Assembly (NCBI GenBank): GCA_027490055.1
Contig: JAIXYV010000043.1
Span: 1 to 32,961 of the forward strand
Source: Bacteroidota bacterium
Lineage (GTDB): Bacteria > Bacteroidota > Bacteroidia > NS11-12g > UBA955
Direction of reading: 5' to 3'
Length of the DNA stretch: 32,961 bases
Part shown: positions 2,252-28,312 of the stretch, piece by piece
How positions within the stretch are numbered: the first letter of the stretch is position 1
How the letters are laid out: each line of letters opens with the position of its first letter
Notes under the pieces: generated by a model
Told to the model about the DNA's origin: nothing
Seen by the model: only the letters and a program-made list of their open reading frames with translations
Databases searched by the model: none
Program-made: the position numbers and the translations under genes

Positions 2252-2704
2252 ATGGCAAATTCAAAAGCTGAACGATACGAGGAGCTTCTTCAAAAAGCTT
2301 CGGGACTAATTGATAAAAACTGTGGTGATACAGCCAATCTGGCCAATGTTTCAGCCCTTCTTAAAGATACATTTAATTTCTGGTGGTGTGGTTTTTACCT
2401 GATAAACTCTAATCAAGTATTAGAACTTGGTCCATTTCAGGGACCAGTAGCCTGCACGCTGATTCCTTTTGGAAAAGGTGTTTGCGGCAGCGCCTGGGAA
2501 AGACAAGAAACGATTATTGTACCGGATGTCCACCAGTTTGAAGGGCATATTGCCTGCTCTTCGGTGAGTAACTCCGAAATTGTTGTCCCTTTTTTCAGAG
2601 ACAACAAAATCGTCGGAGTACTTGATATTGACAGCGAACACTTCAATCATTTTGACCAAACCGATCAAAAATATCTTGAAGCCTTGCTTAAACTTCTTAA
2701 TTAA
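2252..2704 (+). CDS. msrC: Free methionine-(R)-sulfoxide reductase, GAF fold (fRMsr/MsrC)
   Basis: This 150-residue single GAF-domain enzyme reduces free methionine-R-sulfoxide in the cytoplasm, with electrons from thioredoxin. Three cysteines at residues 68 (PVACTLIP), 78 (GVCGSAW) and 102 (HIACSS) have exactly the 10- and 24-residue spacings of the catalytic and resolving cysteines of E. coli fRMsr (84/94/118). The family motifs LGPFQGPVAC, VPDVHQFEGHIAC and GVLDIDSEHF are all present. The start is supported by a -7 box directly in front of it. Its stop codon overlaps that of the convergent repeat-protein gene by 4 bp. A protein-bound counterpart, msrB, lies 5 kb downstream. Confidence 0.93.
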   Translation: MANSKAERYEELLQKASGLIDKNCGDTANLANVSALLKDTFNFWWCGFYLINSNQVLELGPFQGPVACTLIPFGKGVCGSAWERQETIIVPDVHQFEGHIACSSVSNSEIVVPFFRDNKIVGVLDIDSEHFNHFDQTDQKYLEALLKLLN

Positions 2705-5700
2705 CGTTTAATGGTGTCTACCATGTTGCCAGACATCATTTCGCCTTCTGTATAGTATTCTTCCTTTAAGTTCAGATTGCCACCATAAGTGTTAATCCAG
2801 GCAACAAATTCTTCATTGCTCATAAAGCAAACCTTATCACTTAAATTCAATCCACCAAGATCACCAACCAGCCATCTGCCTGATTTCTTGCCGTTCTCAA
2901 AGGCGCCAATAGCATTTGGCAAACCAAATTTACTGTAGTAAACCCAAATGCCTTCTTTCTTGCCATTCACCATTCTGCCTTCTTTTAATTTATAACCATT
3001 AGACTGCAATTCCTCAATAAAGCCTGAACCATTAACTAATACTGGCTTACCTACTGTATCGTAAAACTCCAGGTAGTAATCCTCTTCTGTTGGAATATCA
3101 GCCTCACTCTCGCAAGAATACTTGGTTTCCTGATCTAAGGCCAAACCCTTAAACATCAATCTACCATCATCATAGTAAGCTTTTACAATTCCATAACTGT
3201 GGAATGTATCTTCACCATTGATCTCAATAATTGAATCTCTAAAGTCTATGCGCTTATAAATTCTGTCTTTGCCTTCTCTGTAAAAACTCCATTCACCTAC
3301 CGGATTATTGTCTTTTTTCATCCCCTCACTAAAGATGGTTCCGCTCTTGTAGTAGTATTTGTAATTGCCTTTTTTCACATAGGTAGTCGAGAATATACCC
3401 GTTAAGAAATCATTGCCACTTAAATCTGGCGATTCGATGATAGCATTCGCGCCACTGGACAAGGAAGGAACTCTTTTGCCTTTCTTATAATTCCAATACA
3501 TTCTTGGAATAGAATGGTAAATGTCATAGTACATGCTGTCTTTTGAATTCATATCAACTGTCATTTTCAACTGACCGCTGTCTCTGTATAACTCATAAGT
3601 ACCAACCATATAACCTTTATTAAACTGATAGCGCTCGATAAAACGATTGATCGTATCAACTTCATTGTATCTGACAAAGTAACCATCTGGAACACCCATA
3701 TTGAAATACCCGCTATAGTTAGGCGTACCATTCATATCCAGATTCCAAACTTTACCATTAACTGTATCCCTTTTGGTATTATAGACATAGTTCAGATAAT
3801 TGTAATTGTAACCACTGTAACTATACTGCATACCTTCTTTCTTACCCTTCGAAAAGTTATACTGTTTCTCGAGGGTACTGTTGTTTAAAATATGCCACTG
3901 ACCATGTTTCTTTCCATCTTCAAATTGAATAGAAGAGGATTTAATTTGATAAGTATTATCCAGTTTAATTTTAGTGCGCTTTCTATGGTAACTTGAGCGA
4001 TAAAAATCTGGCTCATAGGCATAATCATAATCCCCATAGTCATCATAATCATCGCCTTTACTGTGATTGTTAAATCTGTAGAGATCAAATTCGAGTTCAG
4101 ATACAATTTTATTACTGCTAAAATAGGTGGACACCGATTGATTCCTGAAGATATCATAATACGAAGCACCACCGCTAAAATTCGCTTCTTCTATACCAAA
4201 ATTCATTCGTCTCACTGGCATAATGAAAGTGCTATTGTATTTCTTCAAAATATTTTTATCCATCTCCACTGTCAGTTCGATGATCTGTTTCTTAGCAAGA
4301 AAATCGAAGAACTGAGTGATTTCGTATACTCTTGCCTTGATCTTATTTGGACGTCTTTTGTATTTTACATTGACCTGAAGTGACCCTGTAAAAGGTTTTC
4401 TTCCAAGATAAATGGAACGGTGCATGGTAGGTTCAAGGGTGAAGAACTCAAGGAAGTTGGTATTGAAATTAGCTTTATAATCTCTTCGTCCTTTTTTGTA
4501 ATAATCGAACATGTCTTCAGAAAAATCACCAAAAGCATTGTAATAGTTTTCGTCATACTCGTAGAACTTTTTACCTTTTAACATCAAGGTGTCTGTTAAA
4601 GTTAATGTATCATAGTGAGTAGGTATCTTGATCACTCTTAATACTCTGCCATCTTTGTACCCTCCGGTAACCACAAAATACTTCTGATAGTTGAAATACT
4701 TGCCTTTAGTAAACTTAGTATTGTTATAGGTATAATCTAAGGCCATCTGATAAAACTCTTCGCCTGTATATGCACCTTTCTTGTAAACATATTTAGATTT
4801 AGGCACTAAAGAATCGCCGGTAAATAATTTATCATAAGTAGAAGTATACACTTTTGTGGTTTTGCCTTTCTTATCTGTCGTTTTATCCCATAACTCTGTT
4901 TGACAATAGGTGTTACTATTGCTGTAATCATCGTATCTTCTGTAATTATATGTTGTATTGTTGAACTTCTTCGAGCACGAATCTATCAGATAGGCCGTTT
5001 CGCCACTGCCACCTTTCCAGTGATTATAAGTTTCAATCTTTATATAGTGACCATTGATGATGGTGTCCTTAACATTTCTCCAAAACTGAGTCAGCTTGTA
5101 GTAATTAAAACGAGCTGAATCGGCTAATGCATAGGTATACTGTACAGGGACATCACTATCATACTTAAAAAAGATATAATCGTCTTTAGAAGAACCAAAC
5201 TCTGAAGAATACGAATATTCGTTTCTCACGATTGGAATATGCTTATCCGATTTGAAAGTGCTGGCATACTTCATCACACTGTCTTTGCTGAACAATGTCT
5301 TATTTTCCAGCTTTCCATCCGAATAATAGACTCTGGCTGTCTGTTTACCTTTACTGTAATACTCCAGGGTATAAGACAATTTTAATTCCGCATAGGCTTT
5401 TTTCCATTCACCTTCTTCTTCACCTTTCACATAATTTCCTTCTGTGGTTTGATAAACTGCAGGTTTTTTCTTTTTTAAATAATAAGTGGTTTTTTTATAA
5501 GGTCCAGATTTCTGACCCATCTCCATAGAAATTGATCTGGTTTCTAAAGTATCTTTTTTGCCATAACAAGCTTTCACTTTTTGTAAACCATCCAATACCC
5601 CATCTTTGAATTTTAACTCAAATACATAAGCACTGTATTTCATCTTGCCTCCGGGAGAATAGTCATAATCATTATTATAACTATAGTCATCATTATCATA

Positions 5701-6183
5701 ATAATCATAGTGCCTTCTTCTCGGTACATATCTGTGACTCTCTTGTATAAGTCTTACAGAACCATTTAGCATATCATTCTGATAAGGCAATTCTGCAAAT
5801 GGCTTAACCTGATTGTCTCTGCTGTAAAACTTTGCAATACCGTCTTTCTTATTGTTCTTGATGGTAAGTGTTGCAAACACATGATAAATGGTGTCATACA
5901 CCACTTCTTTTCCAATCTTGCGTTTGTTTTTTAAATCGAAAGATGTCGAATACATAAGGTACTCGCCGTCTTCTACTGTGCCAATTACCGGGGGCATATT
6001 GTAATTGTAAAACTCCAGTGAACTTTCACTGACAGTAAAACGCATACCCGAATAGCCGACATCAATGGTTTGAGGATAAATTAAGTAAGGTTTGCCATTA
6101 AATCTGGCTGTTTTCTGGGCATTAGCAGTAAAAACGGAAATAAAAAGTAATAGAACTAGGGATTGTTTTAGCTTTAATTGCAT
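2701..6183 (-). CDS. Very large secreted MORN-like repeat protein, function unknown
   Basis: 1160 residues beginning with a signal peptide (MQLKLKQSLVLLLFISVFTANAQ) that ends in the ANAQ cleavage context common in Bacteroidota. The body carries many degenerate MORN-variant/YwqK-type repeats of the form GxxxGxWxxYxxxG, for example GKKHGQWHI, NPVGEWSFYREG, GKKEGIWVYY and GKKSGRWLVGD, densest after about residue 730 and towards the C-terminus. Two low-complexity acidic/tyrosine tracts occur at about residues 158-177 and 706-725. I see no catalytic motif and no type IX sorting domain, so it may remain periplasmic or on the outer membrane; that is inference. It is transcribed alone from a divergent promoter region shared with der. 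Similar repeats are N-terminal in the truncated hydrolase at the right edge of the window. Confidence 0.8.
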   Translation of the reverse strand: MQLKLKQSLVLLLFISVFTANAQKTARFNGKPYLIYPQTIDVGYSGMRFTVSESSLEFYNYNMPPVIGTVEDGEYLMYSTSFDLKNKRKIGKEVVYDTIYHVFATLTIKNNKKDGIAKFYSRDNQVKPFAELPYQNDMLNGSVRLIQESHRYVPRRRHYDYYDNDDYSYNNDYDYSPGGKMKYSAYVFELKFKDGVLDGLQKVKACYGKKDTLETRSISMEMGQKSGPYKKTTYYLKKKKPAVYQTTEGNYVKGEEEGEWKKAYAELKLSYTLEYYSKGKQTARVYYSDGKLENKTLFSKDSVMKYASTFKSDKHIPIVRNEYSYSSEFGSSKDDYIFFKYDSDVPVQYTYALADSARFNYYKLTQFWRNVKDTIINGHYIKIETYNHWKGGSGETAYLIDSCSKKFNNTTYNYRRYDDYSNSNTYCQTELWDKTTDKKGKTTKVYTSTYDKLFTGDSLVPKSKYVYKKGAYTGEEFYQMALDYTYNNTKFTKGKYFNYQKYFVVTGGYKDGRVLRVIKIPTHYDTLTLTDTLMLKGKKFYEYDENYYNAFGDFSEDMFDYYKKGRRDYKANFNTNFLEFFTLEPTMHRSIYLGRKPFTGSLQVNVKYKRRPNKIKARVYEITQFFDFLAKKQIIELTVEMDKNILKKYNSTFIMPVRRMNFGIEEANFSGGASYYDIFRNQSVSTYFSSNKIVSELEFDLYRFNNHSKGDDYDDYGDYDYAYEPDFYRSSYHRKRTKIKLDNTYQIKSSSIQFEDGKKHGQWHILNNSTLEKQYNFSKGKKEGMQYSYSGYNYNYLNYVYNTKRDTVNGKVWNLDMNGTPNYSGYFNMGVPDGYFVRYNEVDTINRFIERYQFNKGYMVGTYELYRDSGQLKMTVDMNSKDSMYYDIYHSIPRMYWNYKKGKRVPSLSSGANAIIESPDLSGNDFLTGIFSTTYVKKGNYKYYYKSGTIFSEGMKKDNNPVGEWSFYREGKDRIYKRIDFRDSIIEINGEDTFHSYGIVKAYYDDGRLMFKGLALDQETKYSCESEADIPTEEDYYLEFYDTVGKPVLVNGSGFIEELQSNGYKLKEGRMVNGKKEGIWVYYSKFGLPNAIGAFENGKKSGRWLVGDLGGLNLSDKVCFMSNEEFVAWINTYGGNLNLKEEYYTEGEMMSGNMVDTIKR

Positions 6184-19872: not shown

Positions 19873-19894
19873 AAAAAAACTAGGAAACCAGTTT
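19873..19894 (-). terminator. Intrinsic terminator overlapping the stop codon of the CrtI-like gene
   Basis: On the minus strand AAACTGG, loop TTT, CC(T)AGTTT with a single bulged base, running directly into seven Ts. The TAG stop codon lies inside the 3' arm of the stem. It separates this gene from the efflux operon downstream. Confidence 0.5.
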
Positions 19895-21340
19895 GCTGAC
19901 AATCTCGGCACTTCGTAAACAAAGTGGAATACCACCGCCGGGATGAACGCTGCCACCACAGAAATACAAGTGATTGATACTGCCTTTATAATTAGGATGT
20001 CTGAAGAATGCCGCTAATCTTGAATTACTACTGCTACCATACAAAGCACCTCTGTAAGAAGACGTTCTCTTCTCTATTGACAATGGATCCAGGATATCTT
20101 CTGTTTCAATCAGTTTCTCGATATCAGTTCCAAGCAATCTGCTAAGTTTAGCCAATATAGATGCCTTAGCCTGAGCAATAAGCTTCTCCCAGTCCTGCCC
20201 CTTATTTGGTGGCACATTCACCATCACAAACCAGTTTTCGCAGCCTTCAGGTGCGTCGTCTTTTTTGAGTTTCGAAGTAATGTTGATGTATACTGTCGGA
20301 TCATCGCTGACCTGATTGTTATCAAAGATGGCACTGAATTCCTTTTTGTAATCTTTAGCGAAGAATATGTTGTGCAAGCCCAGTTGTTTAAATTCGTGTT
20401 TAATTCCCCAATAGAAAATTAATGCACTGCTGCTCGATTCCACTTTTTTAACTGTCTCCGGCATTACCACACCTTTTAATAAATGGCCGTAAGTATGGTA
20501 AATATCCATATTGCTTACCACAACATCCGCAAAGTAAGTCCCGGCATTGGTTCTGATACCCGTAGCTTTGCTGTCCTGAATGATAATGGATTCTACTACA
20601 GATTTGAAATGAAAGGTGATGCCCTGCCTGACAGCCAGTTCATACAAACTTCTGGTTACGTCAATCATACCACCATTCGGGAAATAGGTCCCTACACCAT
20701 ACTCTAAGTGAGGAATAATATTAAGAGTAGCGGGAGCTTTGTATGGATTGCTGCCATTGTAAGTGGCATAACGATTAAACAGTTGAACAGTCTTAGGATT
20801 GCTGAACCACTTGGTATTGACGCTATTCATGGTGCTGAACATATTCAGTCGCCATAAATTGAGAATTCCTTTCAGACCTGTTTTGGACAAGTATGTTGAC
20901 GATTTATGAAGCGAATTTTCAAGAAAAACAGGGGAGGTTAGTTCATATAAATATTTACTCTTATCCAGAAAACGTTTTACTTTTCCGGCATTCTCACCAT
21001 GCGATTCGGCAAGGGCTTCAGACAACTTTCCAGATTCAGTCGGAGCCATAAAACTCGTGCCATCTTCATAAAAATAATGACAGGCTACTTTTAAAGTCTC
21101 ATAGCTAAAACTATCTCTTGGATTTTCTCCAAAAAGTCTGAAAAGATCGTCAACCAGCTCGGGCATGGTAAAGAGAGAAGGACCGGTATCAAAGCGGTAT
21201 CCCTTTGATTGAATCTCACGCATCTTGCCTCCGGGACTGTCGTTTGATTCAAAAACATGCACTTCGTACCCCTTAGCTCTTAACCTTAAAGCACTTGCAA
21301 TTCCTGCAACTCCAGAACCTATGATAATCGCTTTCGCCAT
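19880..21340 (-). CDS. Phytoene desaturase-like FAD-dependent oxidoreductase (CrtI family)
   Basis: 486 residues from the ATG at 21340, which puts the FAD-binding dinucleotide fold at the extreme N-terminus (AKAIIIGSGVAGIASALRL, then VHVFESNDSPGGKM). The frame stays open 21 codons further to 21403, but those residues precede the normal family start. The C-terminal FCGGSVHPGGGIPLCLRSAE is the bacterial phytoene dehydrogenase signature. Such enzymes desaturate phytoene or related C30/C40 carotenes; other members are carotene isomerases, saturases or ketolases, so the precise reaction is open. No phytoene synthase (crtB) or other carotenoid gene is nearby. A near-consensus -7 box (TTAATTTG) ends 12 nt before the ATG. 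A terminator overlaps the stop. Confidence 0.85.
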   Translation of the reverse strand: MAKAIIIGSGVAGIASALRLRAKGYEVHVFESNDSPGGKMREIQSKGYRFDTGPSLFTMPELVDDLFRLFGENPRDSFSYETLKVACHYFYEDGTSFMAPTESGKLSEALAESHGENAGKVKRFLDKSKYLYELTSPVFLENSLHKSSTYLSKTGLKGILNLWRLNMFSTMNSVNTKWFSNPKTVQLFNRYATYNGSNPYKAPATLNIIPHLEYGVGTYFPNGGMIDVTRSLYELAVRQGITFHFKSVVESIIIQDSKATGIRTNAGTYFADVVVSNMDIYHTYGHLLKGVVMPETVKKVESSSSALIFYWGIKHEFKQLGLHNIFFAKDYKKEFSAIFDNNQVSDDPTVYINITSKLKKDDAPEGCENWFVMVNVPPNKGQDWEKLIAQAKASILAKLSRLLGTDIEKLIETEDILDPLSIEKRTSSYRGALYGSSSNSRLAAFFRHPNYKGSINHLYFCGGSVHPGGGIPLCLRSAEIVSKLVS

Positions 21341-21405
21341 GTATGTTTGGAACAAATTAAAGCGCAATTTGTTCATTTTTGATATAAAATTTGTTTCACT
21401 CATCT

Positions 21406-21429: not shown

Positions 21430-22776
21430 ATGAATCTCATTTTAATTTCCTTATGTATCTATATTGCTTGGATTTGGGTCGACTATTTCAGGCTGATAGA
21501 CATCTTCCAGAGGGATGATATAAAATACCTGCTTCCTTTGTTTATAGGTGGTGCTCTCTCTACTCAACTGGTCATCGGTTTAGGCTATCTGCTACCCGAT
21601 AATGCCATCTTTGAACTCGATGGCACTTTTATACACGACTTCCTGATCAGTTTTCTTAAAATCGGTTTGGTAGAAGAAATCGCTAAGATTCTTCCCTTCT
21701 TTTTATTCTTCCTTATTTTTAAAGATAAAGCAAAAGAGCCAATCGATATTCTGGCATTCAGTTGTGTTAGTGCCCTCGGATTTTCTGCGGCTGAGAACTA
21801 TTTATACTATAACCAATACGGACCAGAAATCATCATTAGCAGAGCCATACTCTCTACTGTTGCTCATATGTTTAACACCGCGCTCGTGGCATATGGCTTC
21901 ATAAGATTCAGGTATTACCATAAAAAAAATGGGCTTCTGCTTATACTGATGTACTTGCTTTTTGCGGCATTTTCCCACGGTTTCTATGATTTCTGGTTAA
22001 TCTACGAACCTGCAGGCGCAAGAGGCTTTGTCATTACCATCGCCTATTTCCTCATTACTGTTTCAATCTTTGCTGTCATTCTCAACAATGCCATTAATAA
22101 TTCAGAATACTTTACCTATAGCAAAGTCATAGACTCCGGGAAAGTAAGTTCGCGGTTACTGATGTCATTTGGTTTTCTGTTCCTGATACAATTTCTGATG
22201 GTATGGCATCAGAATGAATTTATTGTTGCCTTTCTGAATTTATTTGTCACCCTTTTCTACATCGGCACTATTGTCTCTGTAACGGTTGTCAGACTTAGCA
22301 GATTCAAACTAATACGCAATCGCTGGCACCCTATTCGCTTTGAGTTGCCATTTACCTACGATACTTCAGAAGCATTACCCGGCGATAACCGAAGCAGTTT
22401 TAGAATCAGGGGCGAAGCTTATAATGAAACATTTATCAACGAGTACTACAATGATTACTGCGTTTTAAGTCCCGTAAGCAGTCGCAATACCTACCTCGAA
22501 GAGTCAAGAATTGCTTACATAGAAGAAAAACTATTCCTTAAAAACGACGATACTTTCTATCTGGCAAATGTCTATGCCGATCTTGAAAATGGTGTTGCTT
22601 TCAAACTACTTCTCAAACCCAAAATTTCTGGAAGCAGCTTTGTTGATGGCAAATTTCCAATAGTCGCCCTGCTGCGATTTGATGAAGATTTTGACATGAA
22701 TGACACCAGCAAAGCGTTATCAGACTTCGAATTTCTCGAATGGGCTTATATCAAACCCAGACAACATTTCAGGTAA
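21430..22776 (+). CDS. PrsW-family intramembrane protease with C-terminal soluble extension
   Basis: 448 residues. The first ~285 are polytopic membrane protein carrying the four conserved PrsW-type motifs: EEIAK (E82, E83, K86), the SAAEN motif (E122, N123), H146 in AHMFNTALVAYG, and HGFYD (H183, D187). PrsW cleaves anti-sigma factors within or near the membrane in Bacillus; related CAAX-protease-like families act on other membrane proteins. After the last hydrophobic segments (ending about residue 290) comes a soluble domain of about 155 residues that is not part of the core PrsW family and that I do not recognise (LENGVAFKLLLKPK, PIVALLRFDEDFDMND). No anti-sigma/sigma pair is adjacent. It has its own promoter and is 45 bp from the VWA gene. 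Confidence 0.82.
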   Translation: MNLILISLCIYIAWIWVDYFRLIDIFQRDDIKYLLPLFIGGALSTQLVIGLGYLLPDNAIFELDGTFIHDFLISFLKIGLVEEIAKILPFFLFFLIFKDKAKEPIDILAFSCVSALGFSAAENYLYYNQYGPEIIISRAILSTVAHMFNTALVAYGFIRFRYYHKKNGLLLILMYLLFAAFSHGFYDFWLIYEPAGARGFVITIAYFLITVSIFAVILNNAINNSEYFTYSKVIDSGKVSSRLLMSFGFLFLIQFLMVWHQNEFIVAFLNLFVTLFYIGTIVSVTVVRLSRFKLIRNRWHPIRFELPFTYDTSEALPGDNRSSFRIRGEAYNETFINEYYNDYCVLSPVSSRNTYLEESRIAYIEEKLFLKNDDTFYLANVYADLENGVAFKLLLKPKISGSSFVDGKFPIVALLRFDEDFDMNDTSKALSDFEFLEWAYIKPRQHFR

Positions 22777-22785
22777 TCAGCATCG

Positions 22786-22816
22786 TTGTTTATACCCCTT
22801 AAATAGTATAAATTTG
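22786..22816 (+). promoter_or_regulatory. Promoter of the VWA-radical SAM operon
   Basis: TTG at 22786-22788, a 20-nt spacer, and TAAATTTG at 22809-22816. Five bases lie between the -7 box and the ATG at 22822, so the mRNA should be leaderless or nearly so. Confidence 0.65.
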
Positions 22817-22821
22817 CACTA

Positions 22822-24891
22822 ATGCAGTTAGTCCTCTCCTCTTCCTGGTGGTTTATCCTTCTTTGCCTTGGCTTAGGCATAGGGTATTCTTACTTGCTGT
22901 ATAAACCTCAATTCAAAGATTTTAGTTACAAACTTATGGCTGTCCTCAGGGCGATATCTGTAAGTTTACTGGCATTTTTTCTTTTAGGTCCGGTTTTAGT
23001 GCGCATGAGCTCAGAAACAGAAAAACCCAAAATTATCATGGTACTGGATAATTCTGAATCAGTTCTGTCAAACAACAAAGCGAACTATTATAAAGATGCT
23101 TTTCTGAAATCCTGGTATGCCATGCCTGCTGAGCTTGGCGATGACTATGATGTAGAATTCATCAATATGGGTGGTGAAATTAAAATCAGTGATTCGGCCG
23201 ATTTTAAAGCTAAAAAAACCAATATTGGTGCAGCCTTCGATTACATCAATAACACCTATGCCAAACAAAACATTGGCGCTGTAGTCATGGCCACTGATGG
23301 CATTTACAACAGAGGAACAAACCCTTCCTACAAAACCATCAATAACCACAGTCCGGTTTACACCCTTGGTATGGGAGATACCGCCCTTAAAAAAGATGTT
23401 ATTCTAAAATCTGCCAATACGAACGCTATTGCATACCTAAACAATTCCTTCCCGGTAGAACTTAATTTATCCGCTTATGAATGCAGTGGACAGTCAACTA
23501 CATTGACTATCTCTGAGAATGGAAAAACGCTGCATAGTCAGGTGCTTACAATTGACAAAAAAGATTACTTTAAATCCATTACCATCAATCTGGATGCGGC
23601 TCAGCCTGGGACCAAACATCTGACAGTTATCCTGAGCACTATCAAGGGTGAACATAGCATCATCAACAACAAAAAAGATGTCTTTATTGAAATCATAGAT
23701 GGCCGGGAAAAGATCCTGTTGACATACGGTGGACCCCACCCTGACATCGGAGCAATAAAAGAAGCCATCAGTGTCAATAAAAATTATGAAGTAATCAGTA
23801 TTCAGGCTAACGAACTGAATCTTTCTGATATCAGCAAATACAGTGTCGCAATTTTATACCAGATTCCTTCCAGAACATACAACTCTGCTAATCTGATTAA
23901 AACACTCAGAAGTAATAATATTCCGATTTGGATCATCGCCGGCAATCAAACAAGTATAGAACAGTTAAGTACTGTGTCTGCTATGGCTAAAATCGATAAA
24001 CACCAGGGTAGATTTAATGAAGCTCAGGCTTCTTTTAATGCTACTTTCAATGCCTTTACGGTTGATGAGAATACCCGCCAGACCCTGAATGCTCTGCCGC
24101 CTTTAAATGTGCCTTATGGTCAGTACGCCGGCACAGAGATGATTGAACCTATGGCGTATCAGAAAATAGGCAGCGTTGTCACAAGCCTTCCTCTGTGGGG
24201 CTTCACCAACCAAAACAACGAAAAAACAGCCTACCTTTTTGGAGAAGGTTTCTGGAAATGGCGCATGCTTGATTTCGTAGAAAATGAATCCCATTTTGCC
24301 ACTAACGAACTAGTCGGAAAAACCATTCAATACCTCACCGTTAAAGAAGATAAACGAAAGTTCAGAGTCTATCCAGTTAAAAATGTCTATGAAGAAGATG
24401 AATCTGTAAGGTTCATTGCCGAATTGTACAATGCCAGTTACGAACTCATTAATACCAACGAAGTTAAACTAAGCTTAATCAATGAAGCCAAACAGGTATA
24501 CAATTATACCTTTAGCAAAAACGACAGAAGCTACTCGCTTGAACTGGGTCTGCTGCCTCCGGGAGCCTATAATTTTACCGCTAAAGCAGAAGGTATAAAC
24601 GAAACTGTTAGCGGCCGTCTGATTGTTACTGCCTTGCAAACTGAATTGGTGAATACCAGGGCCGATTTCGGACTGCTTAGAGATATTAGCAACAAACACA
24701 AAGGTGAATTTATGCCAGCTTCTGATATTGCTAAACTGGCCAATAAAATAAAAGCCAATACTGCTGTTACAGCTGTAACCTATAACGAGAAAAAACCAGA
24801 CGAACTTATTAGTCTGAAATGGGTGTTCTTCTTATTGCTGTTACTCATATCCGCAGAGTGGTTCATCCGAAAATACGAAGGTGCATATTGA
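22822..24891 (+). CDS. Membrane-anchored VWA-domain protein, function unknown
   Basis: 689 residues. Two hydrophobic segments at the N-terminus (about 8-27 and 38-61) are followed by a von Willebrand A-type domain whose metal-ion site is intact at DNSES (76-80), with a second MIDAS aspartate in VVMATDGIYN. A long, mainly extended region follows, including a stretch (YGGPHPDIGAIKEAI) that recalls glutamine-amidotransferase-like folds of related bacterial proteins, and a C-terminal membrane helix (WVFFLLLLLISAEWF). The arrangement is like large BatA/YfaS-neighbour membrane proteins of Bacteroidota, whose role is not defined. The domain most likely faces the periplasm. The TGA stop overlaps the ATG of the radical SAM gene, implying coupled synthesis. 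Confidence 0.8.
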   Translation: MQLVLSSSWWFILLCLGLGIGYSYLLYKPQFKDFSYKLMAVLRAISVSLLAFFLLGPVLVRMSSETEKPKIIMVLDNSESVLSNNKANYYKDAFLKSWYAMPAELGDDYDVEFINMGGEIKISDSADFKAKKTNIGAAFDYINNTYAKQNIGAVVMATDGIYNRGTNPSYKTINNHSPVYTLGMGDTALKKDVILKSANTNAIAYLNNSFPVELNLSAYECSGQSTTLTISENGKTLHSQVLTIDKKDYFKSITINLDAAQPGTKHLTVILSTIKGEHSIINNKKDVFIEIIDGREKILLTYGGPHPDIGAIKEAISVNKNYEVISIQANELNLSDISKYSVAILYQIPSRTYNSANLIKTLRSNNIPIWIIAGNQTSIEQLSTVSAMAKIDKHQGRFNEAQASFNATFNAFTVDENTRQTLNALPPLNVPYGQYAGTEMIEPMAYQKIGSVVTSLPLWGFTNQNNEKTAYLFGEGFWKWRMLDFVENESHFATNELVGKTIQYLTVKEDKRKFRVYPVKNVYEEDESVRFIAELYNASYELINTNEVKLSLINEAKQVYNYTFSKNDRSYSLELGLLPPGAYNFTAKAEGINETVSGRLIVTALQTELVNTRADFGLLRDISNKHKGEFMPASDIAKLANKIKANTAVTAVTYNEKKPDELISLKWVFFLLLLLISAEWFIRKYEGAY

Positions 24892-25868
24892 TGAAAATCC
24901 CGTTAAGACATCAGCCCGTACTCTGTAACTATTATGTTACTTATAGATGCAATGCTAAATGCGGGTTCTGCGATATCTGGGAAAAGCCATCCCCCTATAT
25001 CACCCTTGAAAATGCTGAAAAAAATTTTAAAGACCTGAAACGATTAGGCGTTAAAGTTATTGATTTTACTGGTGGAGAACCTTTACTGCACCGCGAATTA
25101 CCGCAACTACTCGACCTGGCTAAATCGTTCGGATTTATAACCACTGTCACGACCAATGCCCTGCTTTATCCCAAAATGGCTGAAAAGCTAAAAGGCAAAA
25201 TCGATATGTTGCATTTTTCGCTGGATTCTCCGGATGAAGCTACTCATAATAGCAGCAGGGGCGTTCAACTGTTTGATAAATTTGAGGAATCTATTGAGAT
25301 AGCGAAGCGTTTGGGAGAACGACCAGATATTCTGTTTACCGTGTTTAGTCACAATATCGACGAGATCGAAAGGGTGTACCAGACGTATTGCCTGCCAAAT
25401 AATTTCATGTTAATCTTGAACCCTGTTTTTGAGTACAATGAAGTTGGTGCTGAACTTAGTGCTGAAGAACTTAAGAAACTCGAACTCTGGGGAAAGAAAA
25501 AACTGGTGTACTTAAATGGTGGTTTTATTGAGCTGAGAAAAGACGGCGGCAACCATATCGACAATCCGGTTTGCCGGGCAGGTAGCACTACCATCGTCAT
25601 TTCACCAGATAACCAACTTGTATTGCCTTGTTATCATTTAGGTGTCGAAAGTTTGCCTATCAACAATAAATTGTATGAGGTTTGGACAAGTGCCGAGGCT
25701 CAGAATTTGATCAAACAAGAAGGTAAAATGGCTGCATGCGAAGGCTGCACGATTAATTGCTATATGCAACCAAGTTTCGCAACTGTATTAAGTAAATACT
25801 GGTTAAAGGCATTGCCTTCGACCCTGAAATACAACCTTGTAAAAGGTACCTGGAAACAGCTTATTTAA
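24891..25868 (+). CDS. Radical SAM enzyme with SPASM/twitch-like C-terminus
   Basis: 325 residues from the ATG at 24891, which overlaps the upstream stop as TGATG. The open frame extends back to 24819 but that stretch only shadows the VWA gene. The [4Fe-4S]-SAM motif is C20-x3-C24-x2-C27 (CNAKCGFCDIW), followed by the GGEPLL motif for SAM binding. The C-terminus carries further cysteines: CRAGSTTIVISPDNQ to LPC, then CEGCTINC, a shortened SPASM-like arrangement for auxiliary cluster(s). Such enzymes commonly modify peptides or proteins (PqqE, anSME) but some act on small molecules (HpnH group), so the substrate is open. Tight coupling with the VWA protein makes that protein or its partner a candidate client; this is inference. 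Confidence 0.87.
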   Translation: MKIPLRHQPVLCNYYVTYRCNAKCGFCDIWEKPSPYITLENAEKNFKDLKRLGVKVIDFTGGEPLLHRELPQLLDLAKSFGFITTVTTNALLYPKMAEKLKGKIDMLHFSLDSPDEATHNSSRGVQLFDKFEESIEIAKRLGERPDILFTVFSHNIDEIERVYQTYCLPNNFMLILNPVFEYNEVGAELSAEELKKLELWGKKKLVYLNGGFIELRKDGGNHIDNPVCRAGSTTIVISPDNQLVLPCYHLGVESLPINNKLYEVWTSAEAQNLIKQEGKMAACEGCTINCYMQPSFATVLSKYWLKALPSTLKYNLVKGTWKQLI

Positions 25869-26398
25869 ACGAAACGAGGATCGGTTTCCATCACATGCCC
25901 GCATGATTTGCAGGTTCTTAAATCTTCGTTGCCGTAGTAGTCTTTAAATCTCGGCAGAAAGTCTTTTTCTATGTCATGTAATTCAAAATAGGCAGAATGT
26001 AGAGGGTGATTGCACTTTTCGCAGAACCATAACAAGCCATCTGTAAAGCCTTTTCCCGCTCTGACACGCTCAAAAACTAAACCCAATGACCCCTCAGATC
26101 TTACAGGAGAATGAGGCACTTTTGCTGGCAATAAAAACATATCACCTGCAGATAATGGAATATCAACGGCCTTTCCATCTTGTTGAATTCTGACGGTAAT
26201 ATCGCCTTCCAACTGATAGAAAAATTCTTCTGTTTCGTTGTAATGGTAGTCTTTGCGGGCATTAGGACCAGCAACTATCATGACGATAAAATCACCCGCT
26301 CCCACAGTTAGATTCTTATTTCCGACAGGTGGTTTTAACAAATGTCTGTTGTCTTCAATCCATTTTGTAAAGTTAAAAGGAGGCTTTATATCAGTCAT
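25865..26398 (-). CDS. nbaC: 3-hydroxyanthranilate 3,4-dioxygenase
   Basis: A 177-residue cupin that opens the ring of 3-hydroxyanthranilate with O2, giving the precursor of quinolinate; it serves tryptophan degradation or de novo NAD synthesis by the kynurenine route. The catalytic Fe(II) ligands are H52, E58 and H96, the order and spacing known for the Cupriavidus enzyme. A second, rubredoxin-like iron site is complete: C126/C129 (CEKC) and C163/C166 (CKSC), as in other bacterial members. Length is typical. No other kynurenine gene is adjacent, so the pathway would have to be completed elsewhere. Its stop overlaps that of the radical SAM gene by 4 bp. Confidence 0.95.
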   Translation of the reverse strand: MTDIKPPFNFTKWIEDNRHLLKPPVGNKNLTVGAGDFIVMIVAGPNARKDYHYNETEEFFYQLEGDITVRIQQDGKAVDIPLSAGDMFLLPAKVPHSPVRSEGSLGLVFERVRAGKGFTDGLLWFCEKCNHPLHSAYFELHDIEKDFLPRFKDYYGNEDLRTCKSCGHVMETDPRFV

Positions 26399-26460: not shown

Positions 26461-27336
26461 ATGAATGAAGAGAATCAGGATCTGCCTCTAATAGATGTGA
26501 GGAAAGTGTTTCACGACAAAAACCCCAAAATGGCCCGTTGGATACCGGGCTTCTTATTCAGATTCTTCGAAAAACTGATTCGTCAGGAAGATCTGAATAG
26601 AATACTCACCAAAGCCAAAGGCCTGAAAGGTGTGGATTTTGCTCGCTGCTGCTTTGATGATATCGGTGTTACCATCGTTTCTAAAAACATTCACAACGTG
26701 CCGAAAACAGGCCGATTAATACTGGCAGCCAACCACCCTTTGGGCGGACTAGATGGCATGGGCTATATCAGTGAGGTTCATAAGATCAGACCGGATGTAA
26801 AGTTTTTAGTGAATGACATTCTAATGAATGTTAAACCGCTTCAAAATGTTTTCTTGGGCGTTAATAAACTTGGCACTAATGCCAAGAGATCTTTATTAGC
26901 CGTTGAGCGTCAGTTTGCCTCAGATGGCGCAACCTTGATTTTTCCGGCAGGTATGGTGTCCCGCGATCAGGGCGGCAGAATATTTGACTTAAAATGGAAT
27001 AAAAGTTTTATCACTAAATCGGTCAAATATCAAACAGACATAATACCAACTTTCGTTGAAGCCAGTAACAGTAAGCGTTTTTATAATATCGCCAAGTGGA
27101 GAAAGCGATTAGGCATTAAACTCAATATTGAAATGTTATTATTGCCTTCAGAGATGTTTCATCAGAAAGGCAAAACCATTACCATACATTTTGGTAAACC
27201 AATTCCAGCCTATCTAATCAAGAATATTGGTGAACACCACAAGATTGCCAATGCAATGAGACATTTTGTATACACCTTGAAAGATAAGCCGGATGGCGAC
27301 TTTGAAGAATTTTACCACGCATTTAAACAAAAATAA
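26461..27336 (+). CDS. PlsC-type O-acyltransferase, probably glycine/ornithine-type aminolipid synthesis (GlsA-like)
   Basis: 291 residues with a lysophospholipid acyltransferase fold. The catalytic HxxxxD motif is H92-x5-D98 within NHPLGGLDG (one residue longer between H and D than in classic PlsC, as in the related hemolysin/OlsA-like group), and FPAGMVSRDQGG corresponds to the substrate-binding FPEG block. In Bacteroides a PlsC-type enzyme (GlsA) adds the second acyl chain to N-acyl-glycine after the GNAT enzyme GlsB. Here the GNAT-type gene follows 28 bp downstream, so the pair is likely to make the same kind of phosphorus-free membrane lipid. The amino acid (glycine, ornithine, serine-glycine) cannot be told from sequence. 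Membrane-associated at the cytoplasmic face. Confidence 0.82.
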   Translation: MNEENQDLPLIDVRKVFHDKNPKMARWIPGFLFRFFEKLIRQEDLNRILTKAKGLKGVDFARCCFDDIGVTIVSKNIHNVPKTGRLILAANHPLGGLDGMGYISEVHKIRPDVKFLVNDILMNVKPLQNVFLGVNKLGTNAKRSLLAVERQFASDGATLIFPAGMVSRDQGGRIFDLKWNKSFITKSVKYQTDIIPTFVEASNSKRFYNIAKWRKRLGIKLNIEMLLLPSEMFHQKGKTITIHFGKPIPAYLIKNIGEHHKIANAMRHFVYTLKDKPDGDFEEFYHAFKQK

Positions 27337-27364
27337 ATATATTTACCCTTTGAAATCTAACAAT

Positions 27365-28312
27365 ATGCAGGAGATTATAGCACCGGTTGACAGAGCGCTT
27401 TTAGAGCAGGAACTGAATGATTCAGTCTTTGTCAGACCAACAAACAATGGAGGTAACAAACTTTATATTGTTGATTGCCACGACGCCCCAAACACTCTAA
27501 GAGAAATTGGCCGCTTGAGAGAATTGTCATTTAGACAGGCAGGCGGAGGAACAGGAAAAGATTGCGATCTTGATGAATTTGATTACGGCAGCAGCGCCTA
27601 CAAACAACTGATTGTCTGGCACCCTGAAGACAAAGAAATTATCGGAGGTTACCGCTACATACTAACTAAAGACGCCCGCATGCCAGATGGCAATTACCAT
27701 TTGGCTACTACAGAAATATATGAGTTCAGCGAAAGGATGAAAGATTTCTATTTTCTGAAAACCATAGAACTGGGTCGTTCTTTTGTACAACCTAAATACC
27801 AGCCAAGTACTGAAAACAGAAGAGGTTTGTTCAGTCTGGACAACCTTTGGGACGGCTTAGGCGCACTGATCATCAACTACCCTGAAGTCGACTATTTCTT
27901 TGGCAAGGTAACGATGTATACCCATTTCAACAGAGAGGCCAGAGATTTAATACTGACCTTCATGCACCATTATTTCCCGGATCCAGAGAATCTGATAAAG
28001 GTTGAACATCCAATGCCAATTGTGTCTGATACTTCTGAATTTAAGAGGGTATTAGAGGGCATGGACTACAAGCACGGACATGTCGAATTAAACACCCGGG
28101 TGCGCGAACTTGGCGAAAACATCCCACCATTATTCAACTCATACATGAATACAAGTCCCACCATGAAAACCTTCCCTACCTGCATCAACACCCATTTTGG
28201 GGATGTAGAGGAAACGGGCATTATGGTGACGATAAAGGACATTTACGAGTCTAAAAAAGACCGCCATGTGAGTTCTTATATGAAATTTCTAGCCTCGAAA
28301 ACCCAGCAATAG
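27365..28312 (+). CDS. GNAT-family N-acyltransferase (GlsB/OlsB-like, hemolysin-type)
   Basis: 315 residues from the ATG at 27365; the frame is open back to 27293, but that part overlaps the upstream gene and is not conserved-looking. The protein fits the Acetyltransf_5/OlsB type: GGYRYILTKDA (acyl donor region), TIELGRSFVQPKYQ and NLWDGLGALIINYPEVDYFFGKV are the recurrent blocks of the family. In ornithine and glycine lipid synthesis this enzyme forms the amide bond between a 3-hydroxy fatty acyl group and the amino acid. It is second in the operon behind the O-acyltransferase. A near -7 sequence (TACCCTTTG, one base too long) lies upstream, so an extra promoter is possible. Confidence 0.85.
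   Translation: MQEIIAPVDRALLEQELNDSVFVRPTNNGGNKLYIVDCHDAPNTLREIGRLRELSFRQAGGGTGKDCDLDEFDYGSSAYKQLIVWHPEDKEIIGGYRYILTKDARMPDGNYHLATTEIYEFSERMKDFYFLKTIELGRSFVQPKYQPSTENRRGLFSLDNLWDGLGALIINYPEVDYFFGKVTMYTHFNREARDLILTFMHHYFPDPENLIKVEHPMPIVSDTSEFKRVLEGMDYKHGHVELNTRVRELGENIPPLFNSYMNTSPTMKTFPTCINTHFGDVEETGIMVTIKDIYESKKDRHVSSYMKFLASKTQQ

Follow-up and report, generated by a model that had tools for sequence, protein, structure and literature searches.

Small gene sets that build and modify amino-sugar lipids are among the closest described counterparts of the genes considered here. In Clostridioides difficile, the glycosyltransferase, polysaccharide deacetylase and MprF-like flippase of the HexSDF system make an aminohexosyl glycolipid and, according to the available part of the report, an overexpression test still yielded the product when the flippase was absent (PMC10128005). 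In the HpnI/HpnK/HpnJ set, a glycosyltransferase, a deacetylase and a radical S-adenosylmethionine (radical SAM, rSAM) enzyme turn a glucosaminyl lipid into the cyclitol ether of a hopanoid (bacteriohopanetetrol), as far as the accessible text of the article goes (PMC12583986). Concerning single enzymes, the accessible sections of two further articles describe BlsE as a sugar-nucleoside decarboxylase acting on a sugar acid (PMC3715490), and twitch-type rSAM enzymes as carrying a truncated SPASM domain with one auxiliary cluster, that of BtrN being a likely electron acceptor (PMC9012708). The present locus lies in a window of 32,961 nucleotides (the whole stretch of DNA analysed; contig JAIXYV010000043.1 of the Bacteroidota assembly GCA_027490055.1). 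It comprises the gene for a VWA-like membrane protein of 689 amino acids (aa; 22822..24891, + strand), based on open reading frame (ORF), alignment, structure model and motif conservation, and the gene for a SPASM/twitch-like rSAM enzyme of 325 aa (24891..25868, +), based on ORF, alignment, Pfam and NCBIfam matches and structure. The tentative reading is that the rSAM enzyme performs an optional tailoring step in an amino-sugar pathway of the envelope (glycolipid or glycan), the core genes of which encode a GT2 glycosyltransferase and a polysaccharide deacetylase.

Co-occurrence of the rSAM gene with a GT2-deacetylase pair

Across a phylum sample of 395 Bacteroidota genomes, the rSAM gene, counted at E <= 1e-60, was found in 34. 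It lay directly downstream of a GT2 gene in 18 of these 34 genomes (10 from operon loci, 8 by coordinates), an arrangement nearly always accompanied by a polysaccharide deacetylase. It occurs in two separate rSAM clades, which do not adjoin each other in a tree of 59 of the 101 rSAM sequences. Of the 33 rSAM-positive genomes other than the window's own, 20 supplied further loci. Among the 19 with a called rSAM gene, 18 of them from other classes of the phylum, 10 had a deacetylase, a GT2 and then the rSAM gene, and in seven of these 10 operons a second GT2 and a PF03706 gene came first. Gene families were assigned by Pfam in one of these operons (L174, with the order PF03706, GT2, PF01522, GT2, rSAM) and partly in another (L171). 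When the ten operons were aligned, the deacetylases kept the TxDDGP and HxxxH motifs and the GT2s kept DAD, ED and QxxRW. Most of the ten deacetylases had no obvious signal peptide on reading of their sequences, which is consistent with a cytosolic step before the rSAM enzyme acts.

A GT2-deacetylase pair, defined as both genes on the same strand at most 300 nt apart and scored by hand from coordinates, was present in 31 of the 34 rSAM-positive genomes (nine of the 31 scored from the further loci) against 17 of 85 tested rSAM-negative genomes (Fisher p = 3.7e-13). Counted by family, the pair occurred in 12/13 rSAM-positive and 3/30 rSAM-negative families (p = 3.5e-7), and permutation inside the three families of mixed state gave p = 0.028. 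Within the window's class, 7/7 rSAM-positive genomes had the pair, compared to 3/36 rSAM-negative genomes strictly or 7/36 leniently. The 85 controls (8 + 77) were picked by hand from 361 rSAM-negative genomes before the cluster results of that batch were seen; the E thresholds were 1e-30/1e-12 in the first batch (8 controls) and 1e-40/1e-22 in the second (77 controls), and the rSAM-positive pairs of the first batch also pass the stricter thresholds by their E-values. Four control genomes with gaps of 0.3 to 1.3 kb (G244, G107, G204 and G071) were scored as lacking the pair, as was G319, in which both matches fell in one 1130-aa frame and the GT2 match, at 2.1e-32, does not pass the stricter threshold. 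With these four near-misses and the fused frame taken as pairs, the result was 22/85 controls (p = 4.3e-11) and 5/30 families (p = 4.5e-6).

In genomes whose rSAM gene has another location, the GT2 and deacetylase genes usually remain adjacent to each other. This includes the window's own genome, where an overlapping deacetylase-GT2 pair on contig C79 (locus L210) has its catalytic motifs by inspection and a GT2 that is 34% identical to the one preceding the rSAM gene in L174. Of 24 loci, at least nine, including three from rSAM-negative genomes, showed the order PF03706-GT2-deacetylase-GT2, such gene orders being lower bounds because ORF calling displaced genes in some loci (L216, L217). The pathway may often include a second GT2 and a PF03706 flippase. 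As the pair occurs without the rSAM gene but the rSAM gene rarely without the pair, the distribution has the profile of an optional tailoring enzyme. An unnamed, well-conserved rSAM family tied to a GT2-deacetylase pair would offer a concrete and testable class of substrate.

Family, fold and possible role of the rSAM enzyme

The rSAM enzyme carries the CxxxCxxC cluster motif at residues 20-27 (24948..24971, +) and GGEP at residues 61-64, both invariant in 25/25 aligned rows, and matches PF04055 at E 5e-26, which places it, with a full core domain, in the radical SAM superfamily. Its auxiliary region (25572..25760, +) holds five cysteines (C228, C247, C283, C286 and C290) that are kept across the phylum in 25/25 rows, down to 42% identity. 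The SPASM motif has seven cysteines, and the enzyme scored 18.3 bits against the PF13186 gathering score of 21.5, outside that family; the shortened auxiliary-cluster region described in an earlier note on this DNA was thus borne out. The enzyme is best read as twitch-like and as a member of an unnamed family. Its score stayed below the respective cut-off for all 25 top NCBIfam models listed. The best of these matches, near full length and shared by 25/25 aligned rows at E <= 1e-10, was the PTO1314 family (TIGR03961), but with 94.4 bits against a cut-off of 306 the enzyme falls outside it, and the model is a hypothetical equivalog without a named function. At the level of titles and abstract openings, with most subscription journals outside the scope, no literature on the rSAM family or on the VWA-rSAM pair was found. 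Two contigs from metagenome-assembled genomes, labelled Bifidobacterium breve (L149) and Thalassobius (L102), carried rSAM genes that group among Bacteroidota, and are probably mislabelled or mis-binned.

The AlphaFold model of the enzyme, built from 38 rows (window included) drawn from 80 loci, was good, with a predicted local distance difference test score (pLDDT) of 86 and low values at residues 20-33. Its best structural alignment was to BlsE (Z 22.6 over 282 residues, 20% identity), followed by SuiB (Z 20.5), and the aminocyclitol enzyme BtrN also aligned (Z 15.5). Membership of the BlsE family is not indicated, with 49.6 bits against the TIGR04466 cut-off of 400, and the auxiliary cysteine pattern also differs, C317xC319xxC322 being proposed for BlsE in the available part of its description (PMC3715490).

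Beyond the observed gene arrangement, conservation and co-occurrence, a substrate, a reaction, an order of steps and a cell location can be inferred. The GT2 would attach an N-acetylhexosamine to a lipid carrier and the deacetylase would then free its amine. Hydrogen abstraction from the sugar by the rSAM enzyme may follow, for which the auxiliary cluster of the enzyme is the likely electron partner and oxidation, deamination, decarboxylation or ring rearrangement are candidate outcomes, and the finished product would be flipped across the membrane. In the window's lineage, the rSAM gene would have been captured behind the VWA gene and be expressed from the VWA promoter via a TGATG overlap, and the VWA protein need not take part in the pathway.

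Several observations weigh against this proposal. Three of the 34 rSAM-positive genomes (G206, G063 and G145) showed no GT2-deacetylase pair at the thresholds used, G206 having the GT2-rSAM arrangement, and neither a flippase nor a second GT2 was called around the pair of the window's genome (ORF calls, a lower bound). Among the best 80 of the 488 rSAM relatives found, no GT2 of this kind lay directly before the rSAM gene, that place being taken in 30 loci by a Pfam Carboxyl_trans gene, presumably accD. GT2 and deacetylase genes are common, and the search profiles were derived from operons that contain the rSAM gene. Adjacency was scored by hand, and the authors chose the 85 controls out of 361 genomes; these genomes are in part related and so not independent of each other, and the test within families was weak. 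As for the fold, Foldseek ranked SuiB first and BlsE tenth by E-value, so that the fold alone does not decide the function, and peptide maturases, MoaA and viperin came close behind BlsE in the structural alignment.

An alternative that is possible, though doubtful, is that the enzyme makes or modifies a cofactor or another small molecule outside the glycolipid cluster, for instance in connection with fatty-acid metabolism, its neighbours being incidental. The putative accD was the commonest direct same-strand upstream gene in the best 80 loci (14 of the 30 within 11 nt), and a fabG-like gene lay upstream in 2 loci. A single rSAM match per genome at E <= 1e-60 in 34/34 genomes and identities of 65-79% among the 80 loci suggest a housekeeping-like role, and many cofactor enzymes (MoaA, NirJ, AhbC/D) are weakly related to the enzyme. 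However, this alternative leaves unexplained both the 18/34 GT2-rSAM adjacencies and the 31/34 co-occurrence with the GT2-deacetylase pair, and accD is to our knowledge near universal, which makes its neighbourhood little informative.

The VWA-like protein and its pairing with the rSAM gene

The VWA stop codon TGA (24889-24891) and the rSAM start codon ATG (24891-24893) have one base, an A, in common, forming a TGATG stop-start overlap (24889..24893, +). Re-reading of the sequence upheld the coordinates, the reading frames and the one-base overlap given in the earlier note; the rSAM start at 24891 is set by alignment, as the longest mechanical frame would begin at 24819. The two genes form a real two-gene operon, presumably co-transcribed through the overlap. 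Among 99 rSAM loci, 98 of them with a called upstream gene, 38 had that gene on the same strand and within 20 nt or overlapping, namely 14 accD, 12 VWA, 10 GT2 and 2 others. Since the upstream gene that the rSAM gene overlaps, or almost touches, is one of three unrelated genes depending on the lineage, a stop-start overlap is weak evidence of partnership: it tells how the rSAM gene is expressed, not what the enzyme works with.

The putative promoter of the VWA gene (22786..22816, +) comprises a TTG at 22786-22788, which is a pattern match only, and a -7 box, TAAATTTG, at 22809-22816, 5 nt before the ATG. The box, of the form TAnnTTTG, was kept 5-6 nt ahead of the start codon in 12/12 pair-bearing rows while the surrounding sequence diverges. 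It is this conservation that constitutes the promoter evidence, because the two-box pattern was no commoner in the window than expected by chance (23 matches against 21.3). In the available part of a study of Flavobacterium psychrophilum, TAnnTTTG is the box recognised by sigma-A, at -12 to -5, and only 5.5% of mRNAs are leaderless (PMC9723704). By this spacing, the VWA transcript is predicted to start with the initiation codon or directly beside it, as a leaderless mRNA, in agreement with the leaderless-type promoter that had been proposed. A like box preceded 4 of 9 VWA genes without an adjacent rSAM gene (scored by eye) and therefore belongs to the VWA gene; a leaderless promoter as a hallmark of the VWA-rSAM pair was accordingly rejected.

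At the protein level, the metal ion-dependent adhesion site (MIDAS) of the VWA-like protein, DxSxS at residues 76-80 (23047..23061, +), has its partners at T133 (23218-23220) and D159-G160 (23296-23301). D76, S78, S80 and D159 were invariant in 21/21 aligned rows and residue 133 was Thr or Ser, in line with the intact MIDAS noted earlier. The window protein matched no VWA or BatA domain, nor any Pfam family at E 0.01, and only one of the 21 aligned members reached this level (PF00092, 9e-4). In a profile comparison, residues 68-186 aligned with a VWA_2 protein encoded in the same genome (hhalign E 5.4e-5, probability 67%). This match and the conserved DxSxS...T/S...D residues together support a VWA domain that is too divergent for Pfam in the window protein. 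Another protein from this genome, 677 aa long and bearing BatA and VWA_2 domains, aligned over about 300 columns including the DxSxS (E 7e-4, probability 27%), a BatA-type likeness that is weak as a profile match and is set against the lack of a BatA or VWA Pfam match. The structure model (pLDDT 74, modest) predicts helices at 9-30, 34-62 and 666-685, matching the two N-terminal helices and C-terminal anchor given in the earlier note; whole-chain Foldseek matches of this model had template modelling (TM) scores of about 0.1 and were not used.

The two genes differ widely in distribution. At E <= 1e-15, the VWA gene was present in 270 of the 395 genomes of the phylum sample, mostly with one match per genome, and the family, of about 690 aa, is an uncharacterised core protein of Bacteroidota. 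Thirty of the 34 rSAM-positive genomes had it and 4 did not, and adjacency was seen only in the window's genome among these 34, by the VWA places listed, which leave some out. In a close sample of 59 genomes (the window's own and 58 relatives), the VWA gene was found in 56 and an orthologous rSAM gene (at least 68% identity) in 15, namely the window's genome, 13 of its 16 congeners and a further genus within the family. The rSAM gene adjoined the VWA gene by coordinates in 15/15 of these genomes, two cases being broken by contig ends, and the pair stayed together while its outer neighbours differed. Of the three congeners without the rSAM gene, two also lacked the VWA gene and one had it cut at a contig end. 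VWA genes without an adjacent rSAM gene sit by rpsO-pnp, mnmA, pheT or others (names from sequence reading).

Among the best 80 rSAM loci, the VWA gene neighboured the rSAM gene in 12, all from close relatives of the window, and was apart from it in 68. The rSAM tree was built on 59 of 101 sequences; one locus whose rSAM gene was not called as an ORF (L168) entered neither the tree nor the counts of neighbours. On this tree, two changes account for the 14 VWA-adjacent rows, and a single origin of the setting is still admissible. As accD adjoins the rSAM gene or lies near it in two rows close to the VWA-adjacent ones (L095 and L153), the VWA setting appears to be derived. The VWA tree separates the second genus (L072) from the window's genus, and therefore repeated loss or a second capture occurred. 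Overall, the pairing looks local to one bacterial lineage.

That the two proteins form a modification or assembly system, with the VWA protein recruiting a client or being one, is improbable. It draws on the pair being kept in all 15 rSAM-bearing close genomes through different flanks, on the overlapping or nearly overlapping genes and on the intact MIDAS; the VWA gene is nevertheless phylum-wide without the rSAM gene (270 against 34 genomes), and the rSAM gene is mostly apart from it and is also coupled to accD and GT2. VWA proteins beside an rSAM gene had 8 distinctive columns, a number within what nine control substitutions gave (2 to 13), and the VWA protein as the client of the enzyme was rejected, as it bears no pair signature beyond the controls. 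A lineage-specific functional link is possible, because the pair survives the reshuffling of its flanks. Of the earlier note's reading, the operon, its coupling, the promoter and an uncharacterised rSAM enzyme with a truncated auxiliary domain, distinct from HpnH, held up; the general system with a client-recruiting VWA protein did not, the neighbourhood survey having largely found the rare co-occurrence that the note itself had held to speak against it.

A maturase of ribosomally synthesised and post-translationally modified peptides (RiPPs) with an unrecognised precursor is very improbable despite the SPASM-like C-terminus and the structural neighbours SuiB, anSME and SkfB, as no separate small precursor gene, of the kind that had been suggested near the pair, fits the window locus (45 bp upstream, overlaps elsewhere; overlapping short frames not tested for conservation, distant or short precursors not searched), no small ORF among those of at least 60 aa adjoining the rSAM gene in 80 loci was common beyond close relatives (shorter ORFs not screened), and 325 aa presumably leave little room for an extra peptide-binding domain.

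Other genes of the window were also inspected. A PrsW-type intramembrane protease gene (21430-22776, +), with no clustered homologue among the 20 loci compared, lies between crtD and the VWA-rSAM pair, and a 3-hydroxyanthranilate 3,4-dioxygenase gene (25865-26398, -) overlaps the end of the rSAM gene with its stop end by 4 bases; both were dropped as partners, neither being a constant neighbour. CrtD (1-hydroxycarotenoid 3,4-desaturase; 19880-21403, -; 679 bits) has homologues flanking the pair in several congeners. The overlapping glycine-lipid synthase genes glsA and glsB (26461-27336 and 27293-28312, +) both exceed their NCBIfam cut-offs and have homologues near the pair in four congeners (L066-L069). 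A 1160-aa frame at 2701-6183 (-) had no Pfam match at E 1e-5.

Comparison with amino-sugar lipid systems

With regard to hopanoid enzymes, the rSAM enzyme scored 41.2 bits against the HpnH (TIGR03470) cut-off of 225, and identity with HpnH, the known family named by the earlier note as a possible grouping, was rejected. Squalene-hopene cyclase (TIGR01507) was found in 0/34 rSAM-positive genomes (2 of 14 control genomes matched, none above cut-off), which makes a hopanoid acceptor unlikely, and a hopanoid enzyme reading was discarded on this ground. The link with the GT2-deacetylase pair may point to an undescribed membrane lipid.

The proposed tailoring role can be compared with both described systems. 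The gene kinds of HexSDF recur in L174 (PF03706, GT2, PF01522 and GT2), whereas the hexSDF operon, in the available part of its report, has three genes and no rSAM gene, and HexS is there a monogalactosyldiacylglycerol synthase, not a GT2 (PMC10128005). With HpnI-HpnK-HpnJ, as given in the accessible text (PMC12583986), the likeness is a glycosyltransferase, a deacetylase and an rSAM enzyme in one gene set. The GT2s before the rSAM gene match the HpnI model over nearly its full length, below the cut-off (68.6 bits in L171 and 54.7 in L174 against 310), but HpnJ is absent from the 20 NCBIfam models listed for the rSAM enzyme at E <= 1e-10. It is conceivable, if unlikely, that the Bacteroidota set is a hopanoid-free counterpart of HpnI-HpnK-HpnJ, in which the GT2-deacetylase cluster, in many cases extended by a flippase and a second GT2, would build an amino-sugar membrane lipid and the rSAM enzyme would turn the sugar of this lipid into a novel head group, for example a dehydrogenated sugar or an aminocyclitol, in Cytophagales, several deep-branching lineages of the phylum and the window's organism.

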